DNA of 36,343 bases, taken from IMG/VR virus record IMGVR_UViG_3300046509_000007, positions 1 through 36,343 of that record; one strand, given 5' to 3'. The stretch is from a virus. The notes under the pieces are model-generated. The model searched no databases, was not told where the DNA came from, and saw only the letters and a program-made list of their open reading frames with translations. The translations under genes were made by a program, and so were the position numbers. Positions 6,894 to 36,233 of this stretch are shown here, in pieces. Positions within the stretch are counted from its first letter, which is position 1; each line of letters starts with the position of its first letter.

Positions 6894-7154
6894 GTGAGCG
6901 ATCTATTTGATAATCCAAATAGAAAATACCCCGAGGATCGCACAATAAAGTCTCCTACCCCCGCCCCGCAACCTGCGCGGGTGAGGATTAGCGGGGAGGT
7001 GGTTGCGATGATGTTCGAAAAATCGGTTGTCGCCATGAAACTTGCCGAGTACCCCGCGTCGTGGGAATATGCGCGGGGAACAGATAAAATGATTGAAAGC
7101 CTCCGCGCCCACGGCATCGATGTCGAGGACAAGGAGGCGGGAAATGACAAGTAA
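6894..7154 (+). CDS. Small hypothetical protein
   Basis: A GTG start at 6894 with GGGGGAA upstream gives 86 residues. The N-terminus (MSDLFDNPNRKYPED) is polar and followed by a Pro-rich segment. The rest (ISGEVVAMMFEKSVVAMKLAEYPASWEYARG) is helical. No known motif. It overlaps the next gene by 11 bases. Confidence 0.55.
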   Translation: MSDLFDNPNRKYPEDRTIKSPTPAPQPARVRISGEVVAMMFEKSVVAMKLAEYPASWEYARGTDKMIESLRAHGIDVEDKEAGNDK

Positions 7155-7500
7155 CGAATGGAACAAGGCTCATCGGGAAATAATGAACGAGGTGAACCGG
7201 AGATGGAAAGAGAATAACCCAGGGGCCTATTCTAGGCACAAGAGGGTTCATGGGAAGAAATGGCGGGCATTACATTCGTTTGAACACAATGCCAACAATA
7301 GGCTATGGAAGGCCATCTTGTCCGGCAAGGTAATTCGCCCCGATACCTGTCCGTGTGGGAATCCTGATCCAGAAGGTCATCATACGGACTATTCAAAGCC
7401 GCTTATGGTGGTCTGGCTGTGCCATAAATGTCACACGGAACTTCACCGGCGCATAGGATCGCTTGGAAGGGAAATCATCAAGGGGGCCCACCGTGGCTAA
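7144..7500 (+). CDS. HNH-like zinc protein
   Basis: This protein has 118 residues from ATG 7144. The C-terminal half has CPCGNPDPEGHHTDYSKPL (69-87) and WLCHKCHTELHR (91-102), which is the phage HNH-type signature of HHxDYxKPL followed by LCxxCHxxxH. Metal ligands are Cys69, Cys71, Cys93 and Cys96. His79/His80, His97 and His101 are candidate active-site residues. The first knuckle is CxC rather than the usual CxxC. The N-terminus is basic and helical (KAHREIMNEVNRRWKE). It could be a free-standing homing-type nuclease or a non-catalytic zinc protein; its position far from the terminase argues against a packaging role. Confidence 0.7.
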   Translation: MTSNEWNKAHREIMNEVNRRWKENNPGAYSRHKRVHGKKWRALHSFEHNANNRLWKAILSGKVIRPDTCPCGNPDPEGHHTDYSKPLMVVWLCHKCHTELHRRIGSLGREIIKGAHRG

Positions 7501-7795
7501 GAAGCGGGGGGCGTTTTACTGTTCCGAGGATGCTATCAACGCCTCAATCTGCTACGCTGACCAACTCATGGTTGATATGCAGATGACAACGAAGGACGGC
7601 GAACAGGCACAGCGCGAACTCCGCTCCGCAATTGCGTTGCTCCGGGTTTGCGAGAAGTCCATTCCATCAATCCGAGAGGACGGATACCTTGGCGTGGTTC
7701 GCAATTCAGTATGGGATGACGTTCATCAATGGGCCATTGCCCGCGCCATCCTCCGTGCAGACCGCATCGCATCGAAAAGGAAGGAGAGAACATGA
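7493..7795 (+). CDS. Hypothetical protein with ADQLMVDM block, paralogue of 8243-8524
   Basis: GTG 7493 after a GGGGG ribosome site gives 100 residues. Residues ~15-45 contain YADQLMVDMQMTTKDGEQAQ, matched in the gene at 8243-8524 by QADQLMVDMMMTTEDGKQAQ. The C-terminal halves differ except for an ARAILRADRIASKRK basic tail resembling HLARKIEARRK. The two are clearly related and separated by two unrelated small genes. Function unknown. Confidence 0.6.
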   Translation: MAKKRGAFYCSEDAINASICYADQLMVDMQMTTKDGEQAQRELRSAIALLRVCEKSIPSIREDGYLGVVRNSVWDDVHQWAIARAILRADRIASKRKERT

Positions 7796-8064
7796 GCAGG
7801 ACACCGCTATTTTTGGAGGTTGAGGCCGGGGAGAAGTTTTGCTCGGGATGTGCCTGCACGATGTCTTGCCCATTCGACGAGGACGAACCGGTCGAGGCAG
7901 AGGCCGGGGAATGGCTCAGGATGCACGTTTGCCTAAAAGCCGAACGTCTTGCCCGCGCATACTTCGCTCTTGAGGAGGCGGTTGATGCCGACCTGAACGA
8001 ATACACCGGCAAGGCTACGGTTTCCGCCCTCGCCAAACTCAGGGAAGCGAAGGAGACGCCATGA
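7792..8064 (+). CDS. Cysteine-containing hypothetical protein
   Basis: This protein has 90 residues from ATG 7792, preceded by AAGGAG. CSGCACTMSC (17-26) clusters four cysteines in ten residues, a possible zinc or iron site. The remainder is an acidic helix (LARAYFALEEAVDADLNEY). No family recognised. It ends in an ATGA overlap with the next gene. Confidence 0.55.
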   Translation: MSRTPLFLEVEAGEKFCSGCACTMSCPFDEDEPVEAEAGEWLRMHVCLKAERLARAYFALEEAVDADLNEYTGKATVSALAKLREAKETP

Positions 8065-8246
8065 CATACAGCGAAGGGACGATGAGGGTAAGACCCCGCC
8101 AATTCTGGACAGCCCGCGAGCGAGCGGGGCTGAAGGCGATGGGGCGGGTATGGAAAAGATACGGAGATTATGTAACCCGAGATTATATCGCTGGAACTAT
8201 CCGCGCCTTCGTCAAAGCCTCGGGGACCAAAAAGGAGAAAACATGA
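8061..8246 (+). CDS. Small basic protein
   Basis: This 61-residue basic protein starts in an ATGA overlap. WTARERAGLKAMGRVWKRYG and YVTRDYIAGTIRAF resemble two helices of a compact DNA-binding fold, but no named motif is met. Its 3' end supplies the AAAGGAG site of the next gene. Confidence 0.5.
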   Translation: MTYSEGTMRVRPRQFWTARERAGLKAMGRVWKRYGDYVTRDYIAGTIRAFVKASGTKKEKT

Positions 8247-8524
8247 AACGTAAACCCGGTCAGATCGCGCTCGATGCGATTGATGCGTCGCTATGCCAGG
8301 CGGATCAACTCATGGTCGATATGATGATGACAACCGAGGATGGCAAACAGGCGCAGGCCGAACTTCGCGCATGGCGGCGGGTAGTCTTGGCGTGTGGAGA
8401 GGCCAAGACAATCTGCGTCGGGGCTCGTTATGTTGGTTATTATTTCACCGACAAGATAAGCGCCGAGTCGCTTGCGAAAGAGATACACCTCGCCCGCAAG
8501 ATCGAAGCAAGGAGGAAACCATGA
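8243..8524 (+). CDS. Hypothetical protein with ADQLMVDM block, paralogue of 7493-7795
   Basis: This protein has 93 residues from ATG 8243 with a good AAAGGAG site. It shares the IDASLCQADQLMVDM block and the following MTTEDGKQAQAELR with the gene at 7493. After that come a segment with two cysteines and a basic tail. The conserved block is an amphipathic helix with Met/Asp repeats. Function unknown; the duplication suggests that the conserved block carries it. Confidence 0.6.
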   Translation: MKRKPGQIALDAIDASLCQADQLMVDMMMTTEDGKQAQAELRAWRRVVLACGEAKTICVGARYVGYYFTDKISAESLAKEIHLARKIEARRKP

Positions 8525-8751
8525 TGGACAAGCCAACCCGCACCATCTGCGCCATGTGCCTGTTCGTGGCGGCGTTCATCCTCGGCGTCCTCATCGGGGC
8601 GCGCGTCGAGCGCGGCGAAGGCGAGGCCCGCATGGCGCTGATGTCCGGGGCGCATGATGCGGAGCTGGCCAGGGTACGCAAGGATAACGAGGTCATGCGG
8701 AGCGTGCTTACGGCGATTGATAAGAATTGGGGAAAGGTAGAGGGGAGATGA
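8521..8751 (+). CDS. Single-pass membrane protein with coiled-coil tail
   Basis: This protein has 76 residues from ATG 8521. A transmembrane helix (CAMCLFVAAFILGVLIGARV, about 10-29) is followed by a charged helix (ARVRKDNEVMRSVLTAIDKNW). This is a membrane-anchor-plus-coil layout. An i-spanin role is possible in principle, but the gene is far from the lysis genes. No family recognised. Confidence 0.55.
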   Translation: MMDKPTRTICAMCLFVAAFILGVLIGARVERGEGEARMALMSGAHDAELARVRKDNEVMRSVLTAIDKNWGKVEGR

Positions 8752-8978
8752 GAATACGAATCTTGCGGACAATGCGATCCAGGGGGACTGGATTTTCGTT
8801 TATCTCTATCCGTAATTCTCGGGAAAATGGAATGTTATCGCTATATGTCGGGCGGATGGGGGTATTCGTATTTTGGTCGATGAAAAGGTTTAGGCAAGGA
8901 GCTTGCCGCATGATGAGACTCGGTTACAGCCTTTCGTTTTCCTCGTTTCCGGCAAACCCAAAATGGATTAAGCCATGA
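8748..8978 (+). CDS. Doubtful small gene or decayed coding remnant
   Basis: ATG 8748 overlaps the previous stop and the frame ends in an ATGA overlap with the next gene. The 76-residue product is unusually rich in Arg, Ser and Phe and looks unlike its neighbours. The region is also more AT-rich. A different frame reads DNAIQGDWIFVYLYP, a TAA stop at about 8816, then FSGKWNVIAICRADGGIRIL, which looks more like natural protein but has no start codon. I suspect a disrupted gene, with the annotated frame a weak alternative. Confidence 0.3.
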   Translation: MRIRILRTMRSRGTGFSFISIRNSRENGMLSLYVGRMGVFVFWSMKRFRQGACRMMRLGYSLSFSSFPANPKWIKP

Positions 8979-9361
8979 CCCCCGCATCAGCTCTCAGGTG
9001 GATTAGCGGAAGGGATACCGGGATTTCCTCAAAGACGATGTTTGCCGCCTTGAGCGGCGCAGATATCGGGCCTAAAAAACTCAACTGCTTCGAAGGGAGA
9101 GACATCCCCAAGGACATGGACGATTTCGGCCGGTGTTATCGCTTGATCCTGGCCGTCCCCGAATGGAGGGATTACCTTGGGCGCGTCTCTATGGTTTTCC
9201 CGGCATGGACCCCGTTCATCCGAGAATGGGAAACCCTCCAATCCCTTTATCTATCCGGGGCCAAGGGAACATATCCGCTCTTTGAAAAACTGGGAGAGGA
9301 GTCGCGGATCATCGACGGATGGGAAAAGACCGGCCCGTGTTCATGGGAGATGAAGCCATGA
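8975..9361 (+). CDS. Conserved phage hypothetical protein (DTGISSKT type)
   Basis: This 128-residue protein starts in an ATGA overlap. It has the pattern of a small protein seen in many phage early regions: GRDTGISSKTMFAAL, then DMDDFGRCYRLILAVPEWRDYL, a Pro-Trp segment (FPAWTPFIREWETL) and a short tail. The family has no known biochemical role. The SSKT block resembles a turn-helix that could contact DNA, which is speculation. Confidence 0.6.
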   Translation: MTPASALRWISGRDTGISSKTMFAALSGADIGPKKLNCFEGRDIPKDMDDFGRCYRLILAVPEWRDYLGRVSMVFPAWTPFIREWETLQSLYLSGAKGTYPLFEKLGEESRIIDGWEKTGPCSWEMKP

Positions 9362-9711
9362 CCCCTGCCGAGATAATTATGGACATCATGGCCGGATACG
9401 TCGGCACGCGCAGCGCCATCAAGCGCGATGCGCTACTGATCGCCGTCAATGCGACGCTCAACCACTACGGCCAACCGCAGATAGACGACCGCGAGCTGAG
9501 GCGGGTTTATATCACCCTCCCGCTGATATGTGGCGATTTTGGCCTAGCGGTTCCCGGCGATTGGGATGAGATATGCGAGTTTGAAAAATACATCGCAAGT
9601 AAAATTCCTGGGGCCAAGGCCGCCGCCCGCGTCAACATCGTCAAGGCGGCATACGGGCACCTTGCGCCGGTGCCGGTGCAGCGAAATCTGTTCGGTGAGG
9701 TGAGGGCGTGA
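9358..9711 (+). CDS. Hypothetical protein, possible winged helix
   Basis: This protein has 117 residues from ATG 9358 (ATGA overlap). Residues ~18-60, with SAIKRDALLIAVN, IDDRELRRVYITLPLICGDFG, follow the helix-turn-helix-then-wing pattern of phage early regulators, where an 'isDRelRr' helix precedes a hydrophobic strand. No catalytic motif. The end (PVQRNLFGEVRA) resembles a clamp- or partner-binding QxxLF-type peptide; this resemblance is weak. Role unknown. Confidence 0.5.
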   Translation: MTPAEIIMDIMAGYVGTRSAIKRDALLIAVNATLNHYGQPQIDDRELRRVYITLPLICGDFGLAVPGDWDEICEFEKYIASKIPGAKAAARVNIVKAAYGHLAPVPVQRNLFGEVRA

Positions 9712-18721: not shown

Positions 18722-19726
18722 ATGAGCATACTCATCAAAGACTGGCAGAAGTTCAACTTCAAGGACCCCGCTCACCTCAATCAGCTCGCCAAGAACCTCG
18801 GCAAGTTCCTCACCGGTCCCTCGACCGAGGAATACCGGAGCACCGTCGCCAAGATCCAGGAGTTCGCAACTCCCGGTGACTTCCCGACTTCCGTCCTCGA
18901 AGTCCTGGCGAAGTTCCATCAGACCACGCCCTACGACATGGGCTGGCAGCAGATCTTCAAGGTGCTCGATCTCACCGGCTCGAAGCGCAACGGCTTCGAC
19001 CTCTCCGACGTGACGAGCGGCCTCACCTTCGACAAGATCCCGGTCGGCGGGAAGCTCGAAGTCAAAAAGATGTGGGGCGAGAAAGCGCACGTCTTCTTCG
19101 ACAACTACGGCGGGGCGCTCGGCTGGAGCCAGAACCTCATCGACGACGAAGAGTACTGGACCCTGGAAGACACGGCCATCGAGTTCCGGAACGCGGCCTA
19201 TTACAAACAGGCCTCCGTCTTCTACGCCCTGATCGAGGCCGTCGCCGCCACCGGCGCCGTCGCCTGGCAGACCCATCCCGACGCCGTCGCTTCGGGCGCG
19301 GCTGGCTATCATGCCGGGCGCGACATCGCCACCATGAACGCGGCCGCCCAGCAGATCCTCCTGGCCGTCGGCAGCAAGGGCTACAACGCGACGCCCCAGA
19401 ACGCGACGTTCATCGTTCTGGCCCCGCTCCAGCTGCAGCAGCGCGTCAAGAACGCCCTGGCCATCCAGCTCCAGTCGTTCGCGGGAAGCCCCAATCAGGC
19501 GAATTTCGCTTTCCGTCCGCTCATCGCCACTCCGGGGATGCTGGCGGACACGTCTCACGCCTGGGTCATCCTTCCCGGCAACAAACTCGTGGCCGGCATT
19601 CGGCAGGACCTCAAGTATTACTCGTCCTTCGACATGCTGTCCAACACCGCCGCGCAGGCCGGATGGATGCGCTACGGCGGCGCGATCGGCGACACGGACC
19701 AGGTGGTCCGCATCGCGTTCGCCTGA
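18722..19726 (+). CDS. Major capsid protein
   Basis: This protein has 334 residues from ATG 18722 with a GGGAG site. It follows scaffold and decoration genes and is itself followed by a strong terminator. The sequence has HK97-like character: an N-terminal helical arm, a beta-rich middle (GLTFDKIPVGGKLEVKKMWG) and an A-domain-like end with QDLKYYSSFDMLSNTAAQAGW, RYGGAIGDTDQVVRIAF. No protease-cleaved delta domain is obvious, since the scaffold is encoded separately. Fold class is inferred. Confidence 0.85.
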   Translation: MSILIKDWQKFNFKDPAHLNQLAKNLGKFLTGPSTEEYRSTVAKIQEFATPGDFPTSVLEVLAKFHQTTPYDMGWQQIFKVLDLTGSKRNGFDLSDVTSGLTFDKIPVGGKLEVKKMWGEKAHVFFDNYGGALGWSQNLIDDEEYWTLEDTAIEFRNAAYYKQASVFYALIEAVAATGAVAWQTHPDAVASGAAGYHAGRDIATMNAAAQQILLAVGSKGYNATPQNATFIVLAPLQLQQRVKNALAIQLQSFAGSPNQANFAFRPLIATPGMLADTSHAWVILPGNKLVAGIRQDLKYYSSFDMLSNTAAQAGWMRYGGAIGDTDQVVRIAFA

Positions 19727-19756
19727 GTCTGAGGGGTACGAGAAAAAGTAGAAACG

Positions 19757-19790
19757 CGGGAGCGGGTCAGAAATGGCCCGCTCCCGTTTT
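19757..19790 (+). terminator. Strong rho-independent terminator after the major capsid gene
   Basis: CGGGAGCGGG (19757-19766) pairs perfectly with CCCGCTCCCG (19777-19786) around a 10-base loop, followed by TTTT. It lies 30 bases after the capsid stop, so it probably limits transcription into the next gene to a fraction of read-through, keeping capsid levels high and downstream levels low. Confidence 0.85.
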
Positions 19791-19806
19791 AACCACAAGA
19801 AACGAA

Positions 19807-22800
19807 ATGAGCGCAATGATTCGAACGAACGATCCCCGCGTGAGCCGGATCATGGCCCAGAAGCAGGGTCAAGCCCAGGTCATGAATGGGCGGACCTATC
19901 GGGCTGTTCCGTCCGCCTCGTCCTTCGCGGACCGCTTCCCCGACGGCGCATGGCGTGGCCAGCGGTGCTTCATCGTCGGCGGGGGGCCCAGCCTCAAGGG
20001 CTTCGACTTCAACCGATTGCGCGGCGAGCGCGTTATTGCCATCAACAAGGCATTCTATGATGTGCCGTTCGCGGACGTGATGTTTGCAATGGACCGGCCG
20101 CTATTGGATCTCATCATGGAGGGCAAACTGGGCGAGGACTATAGGGCGGCCTTCGAATCCTTCCCGGGCGCGAAGCTCTGGCTTGACCTCTCCGGGTATT
20201 CGTATCCGGCGGGCGTCTATTCCGTACCCACGGCTGGCGCGACGGGATGGACCAAGAGCATCAAAGATGGGCTGATTCACGGAAATAACAGCGGCTATGG
20301 GGCGCTGAACCTGGCGCTCTGCCTGGGCGCGGACCCGATCTATTTGCTCGGCTATGACTGTAAACGCGGAGATGACGGTTCAAAGAATTATCACAGCGGC
20401 TATCCTTCCGGGTCGAACCCGGATGCGATGAATATATTCAAACGAGAAATCGAAGCGGGGGCGAAATTGGAACAGGCGATATCTCACAAGGTCATCAACC
20501 TCAATCCCGAATCGGCGCTCAAGTGCTTCGAATTCGGGAACGTAGACGATGTCCTGGCCAAGACGCCGAAGTCGACGGGTGACAGGATCACGGCGATCAC
20601 GCCGACGGGAGACCGCCCGCTCGCGTTCCGCCTCTGCCGGGAGTGGATGGCGAACCAGACGCGAAGGCCAGATCAATGGCTGATAATCGACGACGGGAAA
20701 ACGCCGATTGAATTCGACTCGACCTGGTTCAATTCGGTTATGCCCGGAGTTGCCGTTGGCATTCGCCGGGAACCTCGGCGAGATGACCCCCTGCACACCC
20801 TTGACCTGAACCTCAAGGCGGCGCTCCCGCATATCACCGGCGACAAGATCCTCATCATCGAGGACGACGAATACTACGCCCCCGGCTACGTCGAGGAGAT
20901 GGCACGGCGACTTGATCAGGCCGAGGTTGTCGGGATTTGCCGGAGCAAATACTACCACTTGCCGACGGGCGGATATCAGCAGATCGGGAACGTCGGGCAC
21001 GCCTCGCTTGCCCAGACCGGATTCCGATCCTCGTTTCTCCCGGTCTTCGGTTCGCTCATCCAAAACGGCGACAACTCCAAATGGCCGGACGATAAACTCT
21101 GGCGGCACGTCCAGGCGACGGCGGGGAAGGCCAGCGCAATCAGGGCTCAGCTCTTCGTCGACGATCAAACCCCGCTCTATGTCGGTATGAAGGGCCTCCC
21201 CGGGCGCGGGGGGATCGGGGCGGGTCACAAAACCTCGATGTACCACGCCACGGACAAGGACCGGAGTCAGCTCAAGGCATGGATTCCGCGTGACTATCAG
21301 GTCTATCTGGATATCGTCTCCGAATGTTTGACCGACCGGAACGCCGACGAATATTTCCGGAAGCGGAAGGATGCTCAGGAAGTCTTCCTGAGCGTTCCTT
21401 CGACGTTCGACGATCTTTTGAAATCCTTGGAGCGCGACGGCAAGCGCCTTAATCAGCACACCCCCGAATGGAAGGCGTATCTCGAATTCGCCGCCGGTTA
21501 CTTCAAGGCCCGGGGCATCGCGCGCCCGCTCGTTGTCGAAATCGGGATATTGGATGGGGCCCAGCGCCGCTTTTATGAGACCCTCATGGGGGCCGAATAC
21601 ATCGGGATCGACATCAACTCCAAAGGCCCGGCGGACATCGTCGGGGATTCGTCCGCTCCCGAGACCTTGGCAAAACTAAAGCACAAGATTGGAGGGGCCG
21701 CGATCGATCTTCTTTTCATCGACGGCCTGCACACCTACGCCGGCGCGAAGTCCGATTATGAGATTTATGGCCCGCTCGTCCGGCACATCATCGCAATCCA
21801 CGACATCCACACGCCCAAGATCGGGCCAAAGGATCCTGTCGAAGTCTGGCGGCTCTGGGGCGACATCCTGGCCGGGAACAAGACCGATACGATTATCACC
21901 GTTCAGCGCCACAATCCGAGGCGTCCGGATGAGTTCAACGGTCGGCCGCTGGGCATCGGAATTCTCGTCAAGGACGCACCGGAAGCCCTGACCCCCTCCC
22001 TGGGCACCACCCCGAGGGCAAAAGCCCCCCAGAAATGCGTAGAACGCAAGGGCGAGCCCTCCCAGGTGCCGAAACCGACCGTCTCCGTCATCTCCCGCTG
22101 GCACAATGAGCAATTCATGGCCCCGTTCTTCCTCGGCCACTACGCCTTTGCCGATGAAATCATCATCATGCTCGACAAAAGCACGACGGACCGGAGCGCG
22201 GAAATCATCGACCTCTATCCCAACGCCCGCTACGAATACTTCGATCACGGCGGGAAGCTGAATGATCGACTCCTGGCCGACATGATGAGCGACCTGGCCG
22301 CGTCCCTGAAAACGGATTGGGTCATTTACGCCGACGCCGACGAGCTGGCTTTCCCGGAGGACGGGGAGGACGCGCGGGAGGTACTCGCCAAGGCCGACGG
22401 CAACCTGATCGAGACCTTGTTTCGCTGGGTCTATCGCCATGCGACGGAAGAGGACCTTGACCCCTCGAAACCCGCCGCCCCCCAGCGCCGGCACGGGGGC
22501 CCCTATACGATTGTCCCCAACCCGAGCGACAAATTCATGAAACCCTGCATCGTCAAGCCGGAGGCGGGGGTCCGCTGGGGCGTGGGCCAGCACGACTACA
22601 AGAAGAATCCGAAGGTCAAGGTTTCGTCCATTAAATTCTCGGGCGCTCATTGGCAAATGGCCGACGTTGAAGAGGCCGTTCGGCGGTACAACAAAAACAA
22701 CGATCGCCTGAGCCCCGAGAATGTCAAAAGCGGATGGGGCGTCAAAAACTTTACGGAAGCCATGATCCGCGAGGAATGCTCCAAGCATCTCAATGATCCC

Positions 22801-22812
22801 ATCGTTATCTGA
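19807..22812 (+). CDS. Four-domain sugar/methyl-transfer protein: DUF115-like, glycosyltransferase, SAM methyltransferase, glycosyltransferase
   Basis: The frame is open to the left, but that part is a shadow of the capsid gene and the terminator; ATG 19807 gives 1001 residues. Domain 1 (~50-250) has CFIVGGGPSLKGFD (54-67) and NNSGYGALNLALCLGADPIY, the DUF115/phage Rossmann type. Domain 2 (~258-500) has ITAITPTGDRP and IIEDDEYYAPG (Asp353/Asp354, a DxD-like metal site), a GT-A glycosyltransferase. Domain 3 (~530-745) has LVVEIGILDG (575-584) and DLLFIDGLHTY, a CmcI-like methyltransferase. Domain 4 (~755-1001) has VSVISRWHNEQF and IYADADELAFP (DAD 843-845), a GT2-type transferase. It sits between capsid and connector genes, so the target may be the virion itself (inference). 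Confidence 0.8.
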   Translation: MSAMIRTNDPRVSRIMAQKQGQAQVMNGRTYRAVPSASSFADRFPDGAWRGQRCFIVGGGPSLKGFDFNRLRGERVIAINKAFYDVPFADVMFAMDRPLLDLIMEGKLGEDYRAAFESFPGAKLWLDLSGYSYPAGVYSVPTAGATGWTKSIKDGLIHGNNSGYGALNLALCLGADPIYLLGYDCKRGDDGSKNYHSGYPSGSNPDAMNIFKREIEAGAKLEQAISHKVINLNPESALKCFEFGNVDDVLAKTPKSTGDRITAITPTGDRPLAFRLCREWMANQTRRPDQWLIIDDGKTPIEFDSTWFNSVMPGVAVGIRREPRRDDPLHTLDLNLKAALPHITGDKILIIEDDEYYAPGYVEEMARRLDQAEVVGICRSKYYHLPTGGYQQIGNVGHASLAQTGFRSSFLPVFGSLIQNGDNSKWPDDKLWRHVQATAGKASAIRAQLFVDDQTPLYVGMKGLPGRGGIGAGHKTSMYHATDKDRSQLKAWIPRDYQVYLDIVSECLTDRNADEYFRKRKDAQEVFLSVPSTFDDLLKSLERDGKRLNQHTPEWKAYLEFAAGYFKARGIARPLVVEIGILDGAQRRFYETLMGAEYIGIDINSKGPADIVGDSSAPETLAKLKHKIGGAAIDLLFIDGLHTYAGAKSDYEIYGPLVRHIIAIHDIHTPKIGPKDPVEVWRLWGDILAGNKTDTIITVQRHNPRRPDEFNGRPLGIGILVKDAPEALTPSLGTTPRAKAPQKCVERKGEPSQVPKPTVSVISRWHNEQFMAPFFLGHYAFADEIIIMLDKSTTDRSAEIIDLYPNARYEYFDHGGKLNDRLLADMMSDLAASLKTDWVIYADADELAFPEDGEDAREVLAKADGNLIETLFRWVYRHATEEDLDPSKPAAPQRRHGGPYTIVPNPSDKFMKPCIVKPEAGVRWGVGQHDYKKNPKVKVSSIKFSGAHWQMADVEEAVRRYNKNNDRLSPENVKSGWGVKNFTEAMIREECSKHLNDPIVI

Positions 22813-22819
22813 GGAAACA

Positions 22820-23452
22820 ATGAACATCAAGAAATACGACGAGCTCATGGCCGCCCTTCCCGAGCGCGGCGACCTCATGCAGGAAAACACGGAATGGTTC
22901 GCCTACTTGGAATTCGTCTCCGCCTATTTCAAGAGCCGGAAGATCGTCCGGCCCCTGGTTGTCGAAATCGGAATCTACCGCGGCGCGACCCGGGCGTTCT
23001 ACGAACAGATTCTAGGCGCGGAGTACACCTGCATCGACATCAATGCGGAGTATCACCCGGACATCCTCGGCGACAGCAAGGACCGGGCGACGTACGACGC
23101 GCTGACGGATCGGCTCAATGGCCGGTTCATCGACCTCCTCTTTATCGACGGGGATCACAAATACGAGGCCGCGAAGCGGGATTATGAAACGTATTCGCCG
23201 CTGGCCCGTCACCTGGTAGTCCTCCATGACGTCATCGCCCGGCGCGACGGCATGGAATCCGTCATCGAAGTCTTCCGGCTCTGGGAGGAAATCGTAGCGA
23301 CGGAAAGCACGATCGTCTTCAAGGGGCCGGGCTGGGTATGGCCGGGAAAGATGTACCCGTGCGGCGTTGGAATCATCTTCAAGGACGGGAAGCAGATCAA
23401 TGGCGAAGTGGCCGGGATCGGGGTTGTGCTGAAGGAACAGGCGGGAGAATAG
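22820..23452 (+). CDS. Stand-alone SAM methyltransferase, paralogue of domain 3 upstream
   Basis: ATG 22820 with GAGGAAA upstream gives 210 residues. LVVEIGIYRGATRAFYEQILGAEY, then DLLFIDGDHKYEAAKRDYE and LHDV, is the same CmcI/Methyltransf_24-like fold as residues ~530-745 of the preceding protein. The two agree over most of their length, including the lead-in EWxAYLEF and the tail VFRLWEEI. A tandem duplication followed by fusion of one copy is the simple explanation. A C-terminal ~40-residue tail differs. Two related O-methyltransferases may act on successive sugar positions (inference). Confidence 0.8.
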   Translation: MNIKKYDELMAALPERGDLMQENTEWFAYLEFVSAYFKSRKIVRPLVVEIGIYRGATRAFYEQILGAEYTCIDINAEYHPDILGDSKDRATYDALTDRLNGRFIDLLFIDGDHKYEAAKRDYETYSPLARHLVVLHDVIARRDGMESVIEVFRLWEEIVATESTIVFKGPGWVWPGKMYPCGVGIIFKDGKQINGEVAGIGVVLKEQAGE

Positions 23453-26034: not shown

Positions 26035-26550
26035 ATGAGTGGATTTCCTTTAGGTGAAGTCGGCCCCGTCCAGGTCAAGTTCAATGGCGTGGACTTGGGT
26101 TACACAAGGGGCGGTGTGACGTTCGAGCACAAGGAAGAGACCGTCGCGATCACTTACGATCAGACGGGCAAAAACGTCATGAATCGGATCGGCATCGGCG
26201 GGACCGCAACCGTCAAGCTCGGACTGGCCAATCCCACGCTGGCCCAGCTCGAGGACATCATTCCCGGCGCCACGATCGACGCCGACGGAATGATCGTCAA
26301 GGTCAGCGTCGGCGTGGACAAGCGGGCGACGGCGGCTCATGAGCTGATCCTGACCATCATGGCCGGAGTTGCGCCCTCAACCGATCCCGATGCGACGCTC
26401 GTCATCTTCAAGGCCATTCCTACGTATGAAGGCTCCCTGAAGTTCGACGAATCGAACCTGCGGATGCACAACATCACGTTTGAGGCGATCCCTGACGACC
26501 TGTCCACCAACCTCAACGGGCTGTACCGCATCGGCCTCCCGACTCCTTGA
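26035..26550 (+). CDS. Major tail (tube) protein
   Basis: This protein has 171 residues from ATG 26035 with an AGGAGG site. LGEVGPVQVKFNGVDLGYTRGGVTFEHKEE is the typical start of siphophage tube proteins, and a beta-rich core follows with GTATVKLGLANPTLAQL. It is placed just before the chaperone pair and tape measure, the invariant order. A small GGGCgcaaGCCC hairpin lies in the 54-base gap upstream (25981-26034). Confidence 0.85.
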   Translation: MSGFPLGEVGPVQVKFNGVDLGYTRGGVTFEHKEETVAITYDQTGKNVMNRIGIGGTATVKLGLANPTLAQLEDIIPGATIDADGMIVKVSVGVDKRATAAHELILTIMAGVAPSTDPDATLVIFKAIPTYEGSLKFDESNLRMHNITFEAIPDDLSTNLNGLYRIGLPTP

Positions 26551-26568: not shown

Positions 26569-26889
26569 GTGAAGCGATTCGTTATCGAGACTTCTCTTTT
26601 CGAGCCGTTCGAGGTCCAGATCTACGACAAGGTCTATGTGACCCAGCCGATGTCGGCGAAGCTCATCCGGGAGATCAACGACCTCGAAGCCCAGAAGCGG
26701 GACAAGAAGATCCCGGAGCTGGATGCGGTGGTCAAGATCTGCGCTCTCATGTTCGGCGTGGATTCCGTCGAGCTCGACTCGATTGACCTCCGGGCGCTGA
26801 CCCCCGCGATGGGATATGTTTTCACCGCGATGAACGAGGGCAGGCCGAAGGGGAAGGTGGCAGCGGAACCGGAAACCCCAAAAGCATAA
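26569..26889 (+). CDS. Tail assembly chaperone, short form (gpG-like)
   Basis: GTG 26569 with a GAGGTGA site gives 106 residues. The protein is helical and acidic, with VTQPMSAKLIREINDLEAQKRDK and ICALMFGVDSVELDSIDLRALTP. It ends shortly after a slippery site at 26877-26883. In lambda-type tails this short product coats the tape measure while the frameshifted long product recruits tube subunits. Confidence 0.8.
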   Translation: MKRFVIETSLFEPFEVQIYDKVYVTQPMSAKLIREINDLEAQKRDKKIPELDAVVKICALMFGVDSVELDSIDLRALTPAMGYVFTAMNEGRPKGKVAAEPETPKA

Positions 26890-27215
26890 GGGAGGCCCGG
26901 GGAGGGCAATTCGCGGTCATCGCCGCGGCCTTCCCCGGCCTCTTCTCGTATCACGCTTTACTGAATCTCGATGTCAGGGATTTGGAGTACTGGGTCAATG
27001 AGTCCCAAAAGAAACTCGTCTACGACAAGATCAAAGCGGCCATCGCCGCCCGCATGGGCGTGGCGACGGACGAAGGATTTCAAAAGATGATCCGGGACTA
27101 TGAAAGCCAAGTCGCCGCGATTGATCGGGCGTTCGCTGAGGCGACGGGCGGGACTGTGGTGCCGGTCCGCAAGATCACGAGCTGGCTTGACGTGATCGGA
27201 CAGAGAAAAGGATAA
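26569..27215 (+). CDS. Tail assembly chaperone, long form by -1 frameshift (gpGT-like)
   Basis: After a -1 slip at C CCA AAA (26877-26883), reading continues AGC ATA AGG GAG from 26883 without a stop to TAA at 27213-27215. The added 110 residues are SIREARGGQFAVIAAAFPGL and onward, through DLEYWVNESQKKLVYDKIKA to the end. The first 105 codons are shared, so the product is about 215 residues. The stand-alone frame from 26982 has only a TTG start and no ribosome site, so frameshifting is the better explanation. Confidence 0.8.
26877..26942 (+). promoter_or_regulatory. Programmed -1 ribosomal frameshift signal
   Basis: The heptamer C CCA AAA (26877-26883) is in the correct X XXY YYZ register of the upstream gene. 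Eight bases later GAGGCC (26892-26897), with C26898 bulged, and GGGGA (26899-26903) pair with TCCCC and GGCCTC (26932-26942). The loop itself can form a CGCGG/CCGCG hairpin. Spacing and strength match known stimulators. The zero-frame stop is at 26887-26889. Confidence 0.8.
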
Positions 27216-27221
27216 CCGAGC

Positions 27222-30200
27222 ATGGCCTTTGACGCCGGGGCAATAGTCGGACGGATGGAGCTGGCCCTTGACGGCTGGAAGAAGTCTGTCGAAACGGTCA
27301 AGGCCGATCAACAAAGCATGACCGGCTTTGCTCTCCGGCATAGCGAGGAAATCTCAAAACTCGGTAAAGAGTTCGCCATCGCGGGCGCGGCGATCACCGG
27401 CGCACTCACCGCCATTGTCCTCAAGACCGTCGAATCCGAGCACGAATTCGAGCACATGTCCGAAAAGACGGGCATGTCCACCGAGGAATTGTCGCGCCTG
27501 TCCCTGACCGCTCAAAAGGGCGGAACGGATATCGGGTCGATGGTTATGGGGCTGAAGTTCCTGGCCGCGCAAATGGTTACGACGGCCGGGGCGACGGATA
27601 AGCAATCCACCGTCTTGGGCGCGATGGGAATTTCGGCGACGGACGCCAACGGCAAGCTCCGGCCGTTCAGCGATATCCTTCCCGAAATCGCAAATCGCTT
27701 TGCGGGCATGGAGGACGGTGCGGTTAAGGTTCGGCTGGCCGTCGCGCTGTTCGGCAGGGCCGGGATGGACATGATTCCGACGCTGAACTTGGGAAGTGCG
27801 GGATTCAAGGAGAATGCGGAGCTGGCGTCCCGGTTCGGGACCGTCGTTTCCGAGAAAGCGGCGAAGGCGGCGGCGGAATTCAAAGACAAGATGATCGACC
27901 TTGGGGCTTCATCTACTGGCGTGACGCGGGCACTTGGCGAAGCGCTTATGCCCGCCGCCGAGGGCTTGATCATTAAGCTTACGGATACGGTCGTCAAGAT
28001 CAAGGATTGGATCAAAGAAAATCCCGCATTGGTTTCGAGCGTCCTTAACTTCGCGGGTGCGCTGGGGATCGGGCTGACTGCGGGCGGGACGTTCCTCATC
28101 GTCGTGGCTAATATTGCCAAAGCTCTGGCAATCCTAAAGATTCAAGCATCCATTCCGATCATGATCACGGTCGGCGTAATTGGGGGCCTCGCTCTCAAAG
28201 AAGCGTTCGATGTGGTTATGGATTTTCTCAACGATAGTACCTATAGCAAACTCCCGGAGCATGCGAAAGCCGTCGCCAACACCAAGGCAGACTGGGAAAA
28301 GCTCATAGGCACGTTGGGAGAGTATCCCACCGTCATCAAGTCGATTGAGGCTGGGCTCAAGGCGCAGGGCGTGACCGCTATCGAATCCGGGAAGATAAAC
28401 GAAAAGCTTATCGATATCTGGAAATCCTATGGATACGACTCAAGGGCGGCGATGCAGGCGGTCCTCAACGGGGATGCTGGACCGGCTGTCAAGAAACTTC
28501 TCGAAGACCTGATGAAGGCCCACGGAGGCGCGGCGCTGGCCGTCGCTGGCCATGTGGAGAAATCCAAGGAGCTTTCTAGTGAAACCAAGAACTCGAACGA
28601 TGAAATTAAGAAGCTTACTGACGATGCTCTCAAGAAATTAGAGGAGGCATTAAAGCCGGCCGGCCAGGCTACCAAGACCGCCGCCGAAGCGCTCGCGGAC
28701 TTGGCCAAGAATACCGAGGCCACCTATCCGGCCACGGACAAATTAACGACGGCCCTCCTTGCGGCTGCGGCTTCCGGCAAGCTGACGGCGGACGACATGA
28801 AGCCCGCCCAAGACCGCCTCATCGAATTAGCGGACGCGATGAATGGCCACGTCTCCCCGGCCTCCGCCAAACTCGTTGAGGACCTGAAGCGGCAGAGAAT
28901 AGAAACGGCCGCCGTGGCCAAGGGGATCGAGGAATTCCAGAAGGACCTCGAGGACCTCAAGGAACCTTACGGGAAGGCCACGTCCGACGGCTTGGATAGG
29001 GTGTTCGCCCTCGAAAAAGAAAAGAGCTCGACCGATTGGCTCGCAGGGGCGACGTCCGACCTTCAGAGGGCTTACAACGAATTCAACGCTGGTCACATGC
29101 TGACGCAGCTCGATGCCCTGCGGATCGCGACGGACCAGCTTTGGAAGGAGGCCCAGGCCAAGGGCAAGCCGGTCATGTGGATGCCGGACCCGGAGGACGT
29201 GGCGAAGCGGGCGAAAGAAATCCTGACTGCCCAGCAAACCGGAACGAAAGCCCTTGCCGCCGACTGGGGGAAGGTCAACGAGCAGATCCAGGCTGACTTC
29301 ATCCGGTCCGTAGGGTCAATTATAACGGGACAGACGACCTTGGCCGAGGGGTTCAAGTCGCTTTTATCGTCCATCACGAATGTGTTCATCAGCGGCTTTG
29401 GAAACCTTGTTAAAATCGGCCAGGATGCCGATAAAAGTCTCGGGGATAGCGCTACCGACGCCCTGAATGGTATCACTTCAACGACCACGGGAACCCTCAG
29501 CCTCATCGGCGCCGCATTTAGTTTTGCCCAAGCTGGGATGGCTGCGTATTACAAGCAGATGGCAGAGCTCGATAAAAAGGCGCTAGAGGGGGCAACCAAC
29601 AGCGTCCAGCAGGCATACGCCTTCCTGGGGAAGATCTCCGATGAACTCGCTAAGAAGATGTTTGACTTCTCCGTCAACAACAGCCTTGCCGCGACTGAAG
29701 CCAAGTACCTTGGCGACATGATGAAAGAGACGGGAATCACAGCCGAGAATTTTGATATCTATCTCTCCAAGGCGACGAACACGCTGACGCTTTACGAACA
29801 GGGAGCACTCACGGCGGCGGACGCCACGAAGCTGGCCGATGACCAATTCGGGCAGCTGCTAGAGGCTGCCAAAAAACTCGGGACCGAAGGCTCGGAGGCG
29901 ATGATTAACTTCATCAAGACCGCCCGCGCCGATGGACTCGAGCTCGCATCGATCAACGCCTATGTTATTGAAAATCTCAACAAAATCCCGGCCGCCCTGA
30001 CAACGATGATCGCGGCCTCCGATAATTCCGCGGACTCGCTCAAGGGGCTTGGGCAGATCGCGCTCACCACGTTCGAGGGGATGGTCGCGGCGGGCGTTCC
30101 GTACTATGACGCGATCACGGCGATGGCCGATCCTCTCGCGGCGCTGGCTAAGAAATATGAGGATCTTGGATTAGCGGCCGATCCGGCGCTTGCGGAACTG

Positions 30201-31400
30201 ATGAAGATCGTAGGCGTTACGAAAGAGCACAAGGAGCTTTTCGACGCCATCAGCGCGAACGATACGATCCTCAAGGCGCTTTCGAATAGCGGGTATTTGA
30301 CCGCCGATACCATGAAGACGTTGACCAAAAACGCCGTGGATTATCATGCCCAACTTATCGCAAATGGTATGACAGAGGACCAGGCGCTTCATGCGATGAA
30401 GGGCTCGCTCCAGGACATTTACGACGCCTCGGTTGCCAACGGCATCCCGCTCGATGAGAACACGCAAAGGCTGGTCGACCAGGCGAAGGCGGCGGGGCTC
30501 GTTAAAGACAAGGTCGACATGGGCGATGTCGCAAACAAGACGCTAACCGTCCTCGAAAAAATCGCCGCGATGTTCGAGAAAATGTTCGGATTCGCGGACA
30601 GTACGAAGGGCGTGCTTGAGAGTATCAACGGCCAGACTTACGGCTACAACATGGCCGAGAACTGGTCGACGAATAACCCCGGCGATGGCGGCGGGGGCGG
30701 GGGAGGCGGCGGCGGAACCTGCTTCGTCGAGGGTGTACCGGTAACAATGGCCGACGGATCGAAGCGCCCGGGAGAACAAGTCAGGGTAGGTGACCCCGTC
30801 AGAGCCTACGATACTGAAACGAGGGAATTTCTGACGGACTACGTAGACGCGGTTATCGCCCACGAGCCCGGGGAAGTCAAGCAACTCGTTTGGATCAACG
30901 GAATCGGCGTCACGCCAGAACATCCATTCTGGATCAATGGCGTCTGGAAGCAGGTGGGCGACGCCAGGGTCGGCGATCACCTTATCTCCGATAGCGGCTG
31001 GGTTGTCGATGTCGCGACGAAGACCTGGGGGCCGGGCGGCGTCAAAGTCTGGAACCTCACGCTTAGAAATAAGACTCACGACTACTTCGCCGGCGGCGTG
31101 CTCGTCCACAACATCCAGCAAAAGCCGGAATATGCCCTGGGCGGCTTCGTTCCGTTCACCGGACCCGCGATGCTTCACGCGGGCGAATACGTCAACACAC
31201 CGCAAGAGGTCGCGGCGATGACCAGGGGCGGCGCCGGCGGGGGATCCGGGGCGGGCGGGGGCGTGACGGTCAACCTCAACGGGCCGCTCATTTCGACGTC
31301 CGGAGTCTCGGAAAGCGATCTTCGCCGGGCGGGCGAAACTCTGTTTGATATCGTCGAGGGGGAGGCTAATCGCCTCGGGATGAGATTGGCCCGCGCCTGA
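27222..31400 (+). CDS. Tape measure protein with an internal Hint (intein-like) domain
   Basis: This 1392-residue protein is typical of tape measures. It has an N-terminal helical block, hydrophobic segments around 270-330 (LVSSVLNFAGALGIGLTAGG), long helical repeats and a late Gly-rich tail. Residues 1154-1165 are a poly-Gly run. From Cys1167 a Hint domain follows: CFVEGVPVTMADGSKRP, VRVGDPVRAYD, TPEHPFWI (Thr1231, His1234) and HDYFAGGVLVHN (His1296, Asn1297). The next residue is Ile1298, not Cys/Ser/Thr. That lack of a +1 nucleophile is the mark of B-type bacterial intein-like domains, which cleave but do not splice. After it, the usual tape measure end resumes: YALGGFVPFTGPAMLHAGEY. Confidence 0.85.
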   Translation: MAFDAGAIVGRMELALDGWKKSVETVKADQQSMTGFALRHSEEISKLGKEFAIAGAAITGALTAIVLKTVESEHEFEHMSEKTGMSTEELSRLSLTAQKGGTDIGSMVMGLKFLAAQMVTTAGATDKQSTVLGAMGISATDANGKLRPFSDILPEIANRFAGMEDGAVKVRLAVALFGRAGMDMIPTLNLGSAGFKENAELASRFGTVVSEKAAKAAAEFKDKMIDLGASSTGVTRALGEALMPAAEGLIIKLTDTVVKIKDWIKENPALVSSVLNFAGALGIGLTAGGTFLIVVANIAKALAILKIQASIPIMITVGVIGGLALKEAFDVVMDFLNDSTYSKLPEHAKAVANTKADWEKLIGTLGEYPTVIKSIEAGLKAQGVTAIESGKINEKLIDIWKSYGYDSRAAMQAVLNGDAGPAVKKLLEDLMKAHGGAALAVAGHVEKSKELSSETKNSNDEIKKLTDDALKKLEEALKPAGQATKTAAEALADLAKNTEATYPATDKLTTALLAAAASGKLTADDMKPAQDRLIELADAMNGHVSPASAKLVEDLKRQRIETAAVAKGIEEFQKDLEDLKEPYGKATSDGLDRVFALEKEKSSTDWLAGATSDLQRAYNEFNAGHMLTQLDALRIATDQLWKEAQAKGKPVMWMPDPEDVAKRAKEILTAQQTGTKALAADWGKVNEQIQADFIRSVGSIITGQTTLAEGFKSLLSSITNVFISGFGNLVKIGQDADKSLGDSATDALNGITSTTTGTLSLIGAAFSFAQAGMAAYYKQMAELDKKALEGATNSVQQAYAFLGKISDELAKKMFDFSVNNSLAATEAKYLGDMMKETGITAENFDIYLSKATNTLTLYEQGALTAADATKLADDQFGQLLEAAKKLGTEGSEAMINFIKTARADGLELASINAYVIENLNKIPAALTTMIAASDNSADSLKGLGQIALTTFEGMVAAGVPYYDAITAMADPLAALAKKYEDLGLAADPALAELMKIVGVTKEHKELFDAISANDTILKALSNSGYLTADTMKTLTKNAVDYHAQLIANGMTEDQALHAMKGSLQDIYDASVANGIPLDENTQRLVDQAKAAGLVKDKVDMGDVANKTLTVLEKIAAMFEKMFGFADSTKGVLESINGQTYGYNMAENWSTNNPGDGGGGGGGGGGTCFVEGVPVTMADGSKRPGEQVRVGDPVRAYDTETREFLTDYVDAVIAHEPGEVKQLVWINGIGVTPEHPFWINGVWKQVGDARVGDHLISDSGWVVDVATKTWGPGGVKVWNLTLRNKTHDYFAGGVLVHNIQQKPEYALGGFVPFTGPAMLHAGEYVNTPQEVAAMTRGGAGGGSGAGGGVTVNLNGPLISTSGVSESDLRRAGETLFDIVEGEANRLGMRLARA

Positions 31401-31791: not shown

Positions 31792-34080
31792 ATGCAGGGT
31801 CTATCAGGCGTGACGGCAGCTCAATTCAAAGCGTCCGTCCAGGCGCCTAAAGCCAAGTTGGAGATTTACTACGGCGGCGGATGGGTTGACCTGACAAACC
31901 TCGCGGGAAAAAACTATCTCAAGAGCTGGTCGATATCTTTAGGCGGGGCGGCGATGACGCCGACGCCCGTGGCCGGAACATGGTCGGCGGCGATCGATAA
32001 CCCGGACGGGATCTTCTACCCGGCGAACACGGCGGGCGCCTACTACGATTATTTCACCACGGGCCGCAAGGTCCGTATCTCGGTCGGCGGAACCTATGGC
32101 GGGGTCGATGTTTATTGGCAGAGGATCATCGGCTTCATGGACTCGCCGAAATTCGCGGCTCAGATCGGCGGCGACGTCCAGCTCTCGGGGATGGACTACA
32201 ACCAGTACCTCGCCGACTTCAAACTAAAGAGCCCAAGCAATTATTGGGGGACGAGCGTCACGAAATCGACGGCCATCAATGCGGCCGTGGAGCGCTGCGT
32301 CAACGGCGGATTCGACGCAAATACAAATAGCTGGATTGCCGGGGACGCTACGCTGGCGTCGGTAGCGGGCGGCGTTGCCGGAAACTGCCTCCAAATAATG
32401 CGGACGGGCGGCGGGTCACAATTCGCCTATCAGCAAATGACGGCCCTCCTAACCATCGGCCGAACCTATACGGTCTCGGTCTATGTGAAATCGGGGAGCG
32501 GGATCGAGCTCGTCCTCAATGGCGGTTTTTCTTCGGCGACGACGAGCTGGACTGGCGGCGACTGCACGCTTGCGAGCGTGGCCGGTGGGCAGTCGGGAAA
32601 CTGCCTCCAGATCACGCGCACCGGAGGCGGATCGCAATACGCGGCCCAGACGATCACCGGGCTCATCGTTGGCCGGACTTATATTTTCTCGGCCTACGTC
32701 AAGAGCGGGACGAGCGGCGACGAGGCGATGGAGATCAACGTCTACAATGCGGCCGGGACGGGGACGCCCCTCGCTTCACGGGCCGGGACATCGACGGCAG
32801 CATGGGTCAAGCACTCGATCGTGTGGGTTGCGACGGAGACCGGCTGTCAGTTCGCGCTCAAGAAAATAACATCTACGGCGGGGACGATGCTGTTCGACGA
32901 AGCGTCTGCCATAGAAGCCGAGGTTAATGGGCCGTTCCAAATCTGCGTTTATAACGGGGCCGGGACGGGAACTCCGCTTGCAATGATAATCGGGGAAACG
33001 ACCGACTCCTGGACTCAGTACAGCATGAAATTCGTGGCGACCGAAACGGGCGCTCAATTCGCGCTCAAAAAGGTAGACTCGCGACCCGTCACGATCCTGT
33101 TCGATACTGCCTCATTTTATGAGGAGCAGACCGGCGTCTATCGCTACGCCATGCCAGCGGACTGCAAGGGCATCTATTATGTCACCTGGAACACCTCCCC
33201 GATCTATAGCGGGACCGACTGGCTCTATGATGCGGTCACAAATGAATTCGTTTTTAACGCGGACAAGACGATCACGGCCGGCGTCAATAACCTGATCCTC
33301 TACTATTTCCAGACGCAGGTCCCGGAGAACGTCGTCGCGGACATCCTTGTATCGGCGGGGCTCTACGCGACCCGCGCGGCGGCGCTCGCGGCCGGAACCT
33401 TTACGGCGACGGGGATCACGATAGACCGGGTATCGTTCCCGGGCGGGAACTCGGCGCTCTATTCCATCGGTCAAATCTGCGAACGGTGCAATTATCGCTT
33501 CTTCTTCAAATACGACGGCACCCCAGCGTTCATCCCTGCCCCGGCCATCAAGGGCGGGGGGCTCGAGGACTTCGCGCTCGAGCAGAACCATATCGCCGGA
33601 CCGTCGTACTACGAGGACACATCGGAATTATGGAACTTCATCGATATCGTCGGGGAGGAGAAGGCGCAGCCCATCGGCCTCGAGCAGACCGAGAAAAGCA
33701 ATTACAAGGGCTCCGCCTCGAATTCCGCCTCGATCACGGCCGACGGCGAACACACGAAGTCGATATCGAACCACCTCTTTCAGTCCGACGCGATATGCGC
33801 GGCGATGGCGACAACGCTCCTGGCGCTTTACAAAGACAAGAAAAAATACATGTCCGTCAGAACGGAGTTTTTCGCGGTCCCGCTTGAGAAGGGGGATACG
33901 ATCCGCGCCCAGGTCCGGCTGGCCCCGGCGGACGGGAAGGGCAAAAAATGGGGGACGTTCAAGTGGAGCGACGGGACGAAATGGGGCGGGAACGGGACCG
34001 TCCTGGTCCATCGCGGGAAAATCCGGGACATCAAGATCGACAACTTCAGCGCGACATATGTCCTCGAGCTCGCGCCATGA
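31792..34080 (+). CDS. Large tail-tip protein with nested carbohydrate-binding-like domains
   Basis: This 762-residue protein begins with a beta-sandwich tail domain (~1-165) and ends with a hub-like region (~450-762; VADILVSAGLY, YSIGQICERCNYRFFF, LALYKDKKKYMSVRT). Residues ~169-445 hold jelly-roll modules of the CBM_4_9 look: VNGGFDANTNSWIAGDATL and VLNGGFSSATTSWTGGDCTL each start a copy. The first copy stops after YVKSGSG (~237). The second runs complete (~240-377). Then INVYNAAGTGTPLA is echoed as ICVYNGAGTGTPLA (~384-397), which is the missing second half of the first copy. Sugar binding for host recognition is likely by analogy. Confidence 0.7.
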   Translation: MQGLSGVTAAQFKASVQAPKAKLEIYYGGGWVDLTNLAGKNYLKSWSISLGGAAMTPTPVAGTWSAAIDNPDGIFYPANTAGAYYDYFTTGRKVRISVGGTYGGVDVYWQRIIGFMDSPKFAAQIGGDVQLSGMDYNQYLADFKLKSPSNYWGTSVTKSTAINAAVERCVNGGFDANTNSWIAGDATLASVAGGVAGNCLQIMRTGGGSQFAYQQMTALLTIGRTYTVSVYVKSGSGIELVLNGGFSSATTSWTGGDCTLASVAGGQSGNCLQITRTGGGSQYAAQTITGLIVGRTYIFSAYVKSGTSGDEAMEINVYNAAGTGTPLASRAGTSTAAWVKHSIVWVATETGCQFALKKITSTAGTMLFDEASAIEAEVNGPFQICVYNGAGTGTPLAMIIGETTDSWTQYSMKFVATETGAQFALKKVDSRPVTILFDTASFYEEQTGVYRYAMPADCKGIYYVTWNTSPIYSGTDWLYDAVTNEFVFNADKTITAGVNNLILYYFQTQVPENVVADILVSAGLYATRAAALAAGTFTATGITIDRVSFPGGNSALYSIGQICERCNYRFFFKYDGTPAFIPAPAIKGGGLEDFALEQNHIAGPSYYEDTSELWNFIDIVGEEKAQPIGLEQTEKSNYKGSASNSASITADGEHTKSISNHLFQSDAICAAMATTLLALYKDKKKYMSVRTEFFAVPLEKGDTIRAQVRLAPADGKGKKWGTFKWSDGTKWGGNGTVLVHRGKIRDIKIDNFSATYVLELAP

Positions 34081-35645: not shown

Positions 35646-36233
35646 ATGAACATGACCCGCCGCGCCGTCCTCCCGCTCGTCGTCCTGCTCGCGCTCGTTG
35701 CTTCCTGCTCGACGTTCACGCCCACGGCCCCGACGCTTCTCATCGGCGACAGCATCGTCGGATGGTTCCCGGTTTCGGAATACCTGCCCGGGCGTGACCT
35801 CGCGACGTGGGGGATCTACGCGGCTTACATCGAAACGCTCACGGCTCGGGCGGCCGACCTCATGCCCCTGCGCCCGCAGCGGCTGATCGTCTGTGTGGGG
35901 TGCAATAACCTCCAGCGCGGCGATCCAGTCGAGGAGGTCGCGGCGAAGTACGACGCGCTCCTCGCGGCGCTGATTCGCCAATTCCCGCTCATGAAGATCA
36001 CCGTCCACGCCGTCCTCCCTATGAACGATTCCCGCGTCCCGTGGTCCTATTTCATGGCGGCGAACGCGGCGATCCGCGACGTGGCCACGCGGCATCGGTT
36101 CGTGTTCATCGACGCGACGGCGGCCTTCCTCGAGGAAGAGGGGAAGGTCAGGCCGGAGATGTTCGAGGGAACCGTCCATCTGACCCCTGCCGGGTATCAA
36201 GCATGGGCCGACTTTCTCGGAGGTGTTCTGTGA
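35646..36233 (+). CDS. SGNH/GDSL-type hydrolase lipoprotein, copy 2
   Basis: This protein has 195 residues from ATG 35646. Signal peptide with lipobox VASC (Cys21), LLIGDSIVG (Ser36), TWGIYAAY, GCNNLQRGD and TVHLTPAGY mark the same family as copy 1. The two agree along almost the whole mature chain. Again the residue three before the block V His is Gly with a preceding Glu, so the departure is conserved rather than a chance mutation. Followed by its own one-helix peptide. Confidence 0.75.
   Translation: MNMTRRAVLPLVVLLALVASCSTFTPTAPTLLIGDSIVGWFPVSEYLPGRDLATWGIYAAYIETLTARAADLMPLRPQRLIVCVGCNNLQRGDPVEEVAAKYDALLAALIRQFPLMKITVHAVLPMNDSRVPWSYFMAANAAIRDVATRHRFVFIDATAAFLEEEGKVRPEMFEGTVHLTPAGYQAWADFLGGVL

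Follow-up and report, generated by a model that had tools for sequence, protein, structure and literature searches.

A-type bacterial intein-like (BIL) domains are defined by a C-terminal His-Asn, while B-type BIL domains lack intein block G (PMC4031507; PMC7765530). The A-type domains form a thioester at Cys1 and cyclise the Asn at their C-terminal end, with cleavage products dominating, and they can splice at a low level without a +1 nucleophile, the freed amino end attacking the N-terminal thioester (PMC4031507). Proteins that measure phage tails can also be processed. The tape measure protein (TMP) of T5, pb2, is cut after R1127 in tail morphogenesis and both pieces remain in the tail, where three copies of the C-terminal piece have been resolved in the hub cup; the lambda TMP is also processed, and the C-termini of the 80alpha TMP have likewise been located in the hub (PMC10038345). 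The reasons for this cutting and its mode are poorly understood, and in lambda and T5 it is proteolytic. Extra enzyme domains within a TMP are exemplified by phiCbK gp95 (CHAP) and the TM4 motif (PMC3556154); these cell-wall hydrolase domains target the host wall, whereas the Hint domain described below, an extra domain of the same kind in its placement, would target the TMP itself. The open-licence literature yielded no account of a TMP that contains a Hint domain. Two candidates for such a published case were rejected: the inteins of phiCbK reside in TerL and ribonucleotide reductase and not in the TMP (PMC3556154), and in ICP1 the TMP is interrupted by genes of free-standing endonucleases, with splicing at the RNA level, which is a different arrangement (PMC10448857).

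The DNA analysed here, in its full length referred to as the window, is a complete 36,343-bp metagenomic IMG/VR record (IMGVR_UViG_3300046509_000007), and its relevant features are collected in Table 1. The product of the putative TMP gene matched TIGR01760 of NCBIfam (E=1.9e-14) and a dozen PHROG "tail length tape measure" families. Directly upstream lies a two-frame chaperone gene, whose GT-like −1 frame extension runs to position 27215 and whose −1 frame ends 6 nt upstream of the start codon of the TMP gene; the chaperone gene is preceded by a gene (26035-26550) resembling major tail and Ig-domain tail proteins. The order of major tail gene, frameshifted chaperone and TMP is the usual mark of a long-tailed phage operon. 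Judged by its profile matches and its position behind a −1 frameshift tail chaperone, the encoded product is a TMP.

Table 1. Positions of the TMP gene, its chaperone and the parts of the TMP in the window
Feature	Position	Strand	Evidence
TMP gene, 1392 aa	27222..31400	+	TIGR01760, PHROG TMP families, gene order, chaperone frameshift
Tail assembly chaperone (G-like) gene	26569..26889	+	sequence, CCCAAAA slippery site at 26877
TMP residues 1-1166, 122.8 kDa, N-terminal of the Hint domain	27222..30719	+	
Ten-Gly linker, residues 1156-1165, before Thr1166-Cys1167	30687..30716	+	
Mini-Hint (A-type BIL-like) domain, residues 1167-1297, 14.4 kDa	30720..31112	+	PT-HINT, BIL structures, dN/dS
Cys1167, block A nucleophile	30720..30722	+	Cys in 14/15 aligned viral Hints, Ser in 1
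TPEH, residues 1231-1234, block B TxxH	30912..30923	+	Thr and His invariant, 15/15 aligned viral Hints
His1296-Asn1297, block G	31107..31112	+	invariant, 15/15 aligned viral Hints
Ile1298, +1 position, not Cys/Ser/Thr	31113..31115	+	sequence
C-terminal TMP piece, residues 1298-1392, 9.6 kDa (95 residues)	31113..31397	+	
C-terminal TMP module Y-A-x-G-G-F-V-P-F-T-G-P-A-x-x-H-A-G-E-Y-V, residues 1304-1324	31131..31193	+	Hint-free in other phages' TMP-like proteins

Towards the C-terminus of this protein, the PT-HINT family of Pfam (PF07591) was matched with 37.1 bits (E=4.7e-9; family cut-off 27.7). The domain comprises 131 residues in all, carries no endonuclease insert and ends GGVLVHN, so that block G (VLVHN) is present. 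The best PDB sequence matches included the BIL domains 6y75/6tmm and 2lwy. An AlphaFold2 model, built from a 15-row alignment of viral mini-Hints, displayed the horseshoe beta (Hint) fold with a mean pLDDT of 91.6; in a Foldseek search it matched 6y75 (E=1.3e-12) and 2lwy (E=3.6e-10) ahead of the DnaB inteins, which followed from 3.2e-08, and its TM scores against the BIL structures were 0.82-0.85. By sequence and model, residues 1167-1297 are a complete member of the Hint superfamily with intact catalytic residues. The original prediction, made from the letters alone, had placed a Hint domain in a TMP behind a poly-Gly linker, with Cys1167, TxxH at 1231-1234 and His1296-Asn1297 intact and Ile next; the profile matches and the fold model bear out the placement, the linker is present, and the residue numbers are exact. 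Its span of 30684-31112 holds at the end but not at the start, since 30684 belongs to the Asp before the poly-Gly and the domain proper begins at 30720.

Structural and sequence comparison placed the domain closest to the A-type BILs of Clostridium thermocellum (2lwy) and Tetrahymena (BIL2; 6y75, 6tmm), with which it shares the fold, a length of about 130 residues, Cys1, TxxH and His-Asn, the missing +1 nucleophile, the missing endonuclease and a site in a variable region. It differs from them in that its host protein is a phage TMP and in that its processing is predicted from sequence. Since the domain ends GGVLVHN, it is A-type-like in its features; the B-type assignment originally proposed is not upheld, as block G and the C-terminal His-Asn are absent from that type (PMC4031507; PMC7765530). 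A class 1 intein would have Cys, Ser or Thr at the +1 position, where Ile1298 is found here, and would carry a homing endonuclease region, although mini-inteins lack one too and this absence is indecisive by itself. The polymorphic-toxin PT-HINTs provide the best Pfam match, likewise have a C-terminal piece behind the domain and, where plasmid-borne, share up to 36% identity with the TMP Hint; they differ in that the piece here is a TMP module instead of a toxin. With regard to activity, the expectation that the domain should cleave but not splice holds in part: that it would mostly cleave is a fair expectation, whereas the exclusion of splicing is too strong, because A-type BILs can splice at a low level without a +1 nucleophile (PMC4031507).

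The residues following Asn1297 start IQQKPEYALGGFVPFTGPAMLHAGEYV, and six residues separate the end of the Hint domain from a conserved C-terminal TMP module. A DNA scan of viral contigs for the module motif recovered eight stretches, one of which is the relative L002 discussed below; in the other seven (two of them near-identical), long TMP-like open reading frames continue directly into the motif without a Hint domain, and the motif lies at a distance of 66-80 residues from the end of each. In Leptolyngbya phage Lsp-JY19, too, the annotated TMP ends with this module and has no Hint domain before it. A Pfam search of the residues behind the Hint domain matched no family. As the same module occurs in Hint-free TMPs, the Hint domain sits directly before a pre-existing C-terminal module, which a cut after Asn1297 would detach; the earlier description of the roughly 95 following residues as a normal TMP end is in keeping with this.

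Among 2.9 million viral contigs, the only close relative found was L002 (IMGVR_UViG_3300045733_000193), whose TMP is 60-65% identical and carries a Hint domain at the corresponding place, with Val following His-Asn. Scans of genome contigs with a TMP profile found no relative, nor did a scan with a DNA pattern joining His-Asn to the C-terminal module, which recovered the window but accepts only CACAAC and hence misses L002 (CATAAC); two further viral-contig scans were likewise restricted to CACAAC for His-Asn. Between the window and L002, 119 of the 131 Hint residues are identical (91%), and none of the 12 differences falls at a catalytic residue, whereas no 131-residue stretch N-terminal of the domain exceeds 86% identity. 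The linker is only 32% identical to that of L002, which is Pro/Gly-rich; Gly-Thr-Cys at the N-terminal junction is common to both. In this single pair of sequences, from which all conservation figures derive, the Hint domain gave dN=0.057, dS=0.70 and dN/dS=0.082 (95% interval 0.033-0.158), as compared with dN=0.251, dS=1.15 and dN/dS=0.219 (0.177-0.274) for the aligned rest of the TMP. These values point to purifying selection on the Hint domain, and the low ratio together with the untouched catalytic residues implies a selected activity or fold instead of a decaying passenger. Because dS in the domain is somewhat lower than in the rest of the TMP, some recent exchange may have contributed.

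Scanning viral contigs for the C-terminal Hint motif [YF][YF]Ax-G-x-[LF]-V-H-N yielded at least 80 readable stretches. Among the matches listed, 72 of 80 Hint or intein sites with this HN-containing motif have Cys, Ser or Thr at +1, most of them being inteins, and the eight exceptions include two further TMPs, so that the suggested search for other Hint-bearing tape measures was fruitful. One, L066 (IMGVR_UViG_3300020045_003191), is a 693-aa protein encoded between a tail-chaperone-sized gene upstream and a Dit gene (PHROG 33, E=2.3e-12) downstream; its Hint domain (PT-HINT, E=4.7e-10) ends HN|V and is followed by 78 residues containing AQGGQVYAGKPTLVGEAGQEVFVP. A search for relatives of this TMP returned only L066 itself. 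The other, a 1062-aa protein, was read from two overlapping loci (L109 and L183) of the contig IMGVR_UViG_3300050821_006746, with genes of phrog_1407 (major tail protein) and phrog_344 (tail assembly chaperone) upstream. Its C-terminal module matches TMPs of Geobacillus phage GBSV1 and Paracoccus phage Shpa, and this module and the gene order, without a TMP profile match, identify it as a probable TMP. Its Hint domain (E=3.1e-10, HN|K) has 264 residues behind it and so lies much further from the C-terminus than that of the window, which is a point against the autocleavage reading given below. Overall, the +1 residue is Ile in the window, Val in L002 and L066 and Lys in L109, and none of the four TMP Hints, which represent three TMP families, has lost His-Asn or another catalytic residue. 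A Hint domain without a +1 nucleophile upstream of a C-terminal module is thus a recurring design in TMPs.

The origin of this design was approached from both the host proteins and the domain. BLASTP between the TMP backbones outside the Hint domain (and the L066 rear module) detected one short L002-L066 stretch and nothing else significant, while in a Hint tree of 23 rows the comparison of one against several origins of the TMP Hints gave a p-AU of 0.51. Independent acquisition, for which the unrelated TMP backbones are the only argument, is therefore best called unproven. The wider proposal, that several unrelated siphophage lineages gained a self-cleaving intein-like domain before the hub-binding module of their TMP, replacing protease maturation by a perhaps assembly-timed autocleavage, is tentative, and we rate it somewhat short of an even chance. 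In 50,697 cultured-phage records, tblastn with the Hint domain plus C-terminus, with the window TMP and with the L066 and L183 TMPs found no TMP with a Hint domain; TMPs without Hint and Hints in terminases or helicases were returned, never both together. With three TMP families in IMG/VR and none among these records, the rarity first suspected is supported.

Our preferred reading, to which we assign a probability of roughly 0.55, is that residues 1167-1297 constitute an A-type BIL-like autoprocessing Hint domain whose autocleavage, mainly after Asn1297, would separate the C-terminal piece of the TMP. From the known families we infer the chemistry: in the folded domain Asn1297 would cyclise with the help of His1296, cutting the chain behind it and parting the 95-residue C-terminal module from the 123-kDa ruler; Cys1167 may additionally form a thioester with Thr1166, hydrolysis of which would shed the 14-kDa Hint domain, and a minority of chains may be spliced. 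Intact catalytic residues, for their part, neither prove activity nor show which end is cut. Role and timing we infer by analogy with T5 and lambda. Release during assembly, release during ejection and a timer function had all been suggested, and these were guesses, among which assembly has the best precedent. The most likely role would be TMP maturation in tail assembly, where the module may have to be joined covalently to the ruler during formation of the tail tip, and its separation could later allow tip and ruler to part at DNA ejection. The Hint domain would then substitute for a protease, cutting between the ruler and the hub-binding module. It is likely either removed or located at the tail tip, because a folded 14-kDa domain in at least three copies would be awkward inside the filled tube. 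As in T5 pb2 and lambda gpH (PMC10038345), processing would leave the C-terminal part of the TMP as a chain of its own; unlike there, the cutter would be the TMP's own domain, no Hint having been reported in the T5 or lambda TMPs. The correspondence between the C-terminal piece of pb2 and that of the window TMP is a functional analogy.

The same residues could serve other outcomes. Splicing would excise the Hint domain and join residues 1-1166 to 1298-1392, leaving a continuous mature TMP in which the domain is an intein-like passenger. Both junctions look competent and A-type BILs do splice in this way, the freed amino end attacking the thioester, but cleavage products prevail in domains with such +1 residues (Ile here, Val in L002) (PMC4031507). 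A passenger also agrees poorly with a domain that has no endonuclease, occupies a variable Gly-rich linker instead of a conserved site and is better conserved than its host protein, as a neutral passenger would not be, and we regard splicing as unlikely. A little less probable again is that the domain works through cleavage or transfer at Cys1167, the thioester being resolved by water or another nucleophile in a Hedgehog-like manner, so that the Hint domain and C-terminal piece stay joined and the new C-terminus of the ruler is released or modified. Hedgehog Hint domains rely on this step alone (PMC7664689), block A Cys and block B TxxH are intact, and the N-terminal junction is Gly-Thr-Cys in L002 as well; yet His-Asn, superfluous for a domain that cleaves only at its N-terminus, is kept in 4/4 TMP Hints, and no acceptor-binding region is seen behind the domain.

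Conservation of the catalytic residues across three families also speaks against a catalytically silent domain retained as part of the tail tip, and although a Hint fold might conceivably have a purely structural use, we consider this improbable. Delivery of a toxin, in which the Hint domain would free a C-terminal effector for injection into the host, is suggested by the name of the PT-HINT family and by the order of the parts, HINT standing just before the toxin in polymorphic toxins (PMC3482391). What follows the Hint domain here is the module common to Hint-free TMPs, with no Pfam match; this reading, strongly disfavoured and the least probable, was dropped because the piece is an ordinary TMP module.

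Should cleavage after Asn1297 be complete on translation, the C-terminal module would act in trans; if it is timed by assembly, the Hint domain would act as a true switch for maturation. A TMP with its own cutter, predicted to cut exactly behind Thr1166 and behind Asn1297, would make the need for cleavage and its timing addressable by two point mutations. A phage-structural role would be added to the BIL-type Hint domains, about most of whose natural roles little is known. Since unrelated phages carry the domain in a similar place of the TMP, a built-in means of cutting the tail ruler in tail assembly is suggested, and Hint domains without a +1 nucleophile may represent a recurrent processing module in virion proteins.

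Further nucleophile-less Hint domains were observed in other viral proteins. Seven large proteins (L022, L024, L034, L036, L042, L045 and L046) end with a Gly-rich linker, a mini-Hint of the form CF[IV]EGTYITLPDG...GILVHN and, behind it, Lys with a few more residues; this family would be a second, apparently undescribed use of such domains. L034, L036, L042, L045 and L086 resemble the window Hint in the Gly-rich linker directly before CF[IV]EGT and in the C-terminal His-Asn, with Lys at +1, but their proteins have no demonstrated TMP identity and mostly few residues after His-Asn (373 in L086). By eye, L082 (1140 aa) resembles the host-specificity or tail-tip protein J and has a Ser1 Hint domain ending HN|K near its N-terminal part. 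L063 and L035 are proteins with at least two Hint-like ends in tandem.

Several genes near the tail regions are also worth recording. In L066, glycosyltransferase- or methyltransferase-like genes (by eye) occupy positions 7032-9512, inside the morphogenesis operon and immediately upstream of the major tail gene. In the window, glycosyltransferase-like (PF00535, PF13704) and methyltransferase-like (PF13578) genes lie at 19072-23449, between the capsid-side and tail genes; the block encodes a 219-aa protein and a much longer one, of some 1000 residues or more, and could serve virion or host-surface modification. The tail protein encoded at 31792-34080 (762 aa) contains two carbohydrate-binding domains of the CBM_4_9 family. 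A gene at 35646-36233, close to where the tail region ends, encodes a GDSL-like lipase/acylhydrolase (PF13472, E=3.5e-17), which may be an enzyme that is associated with the virion and modifies surfaces.
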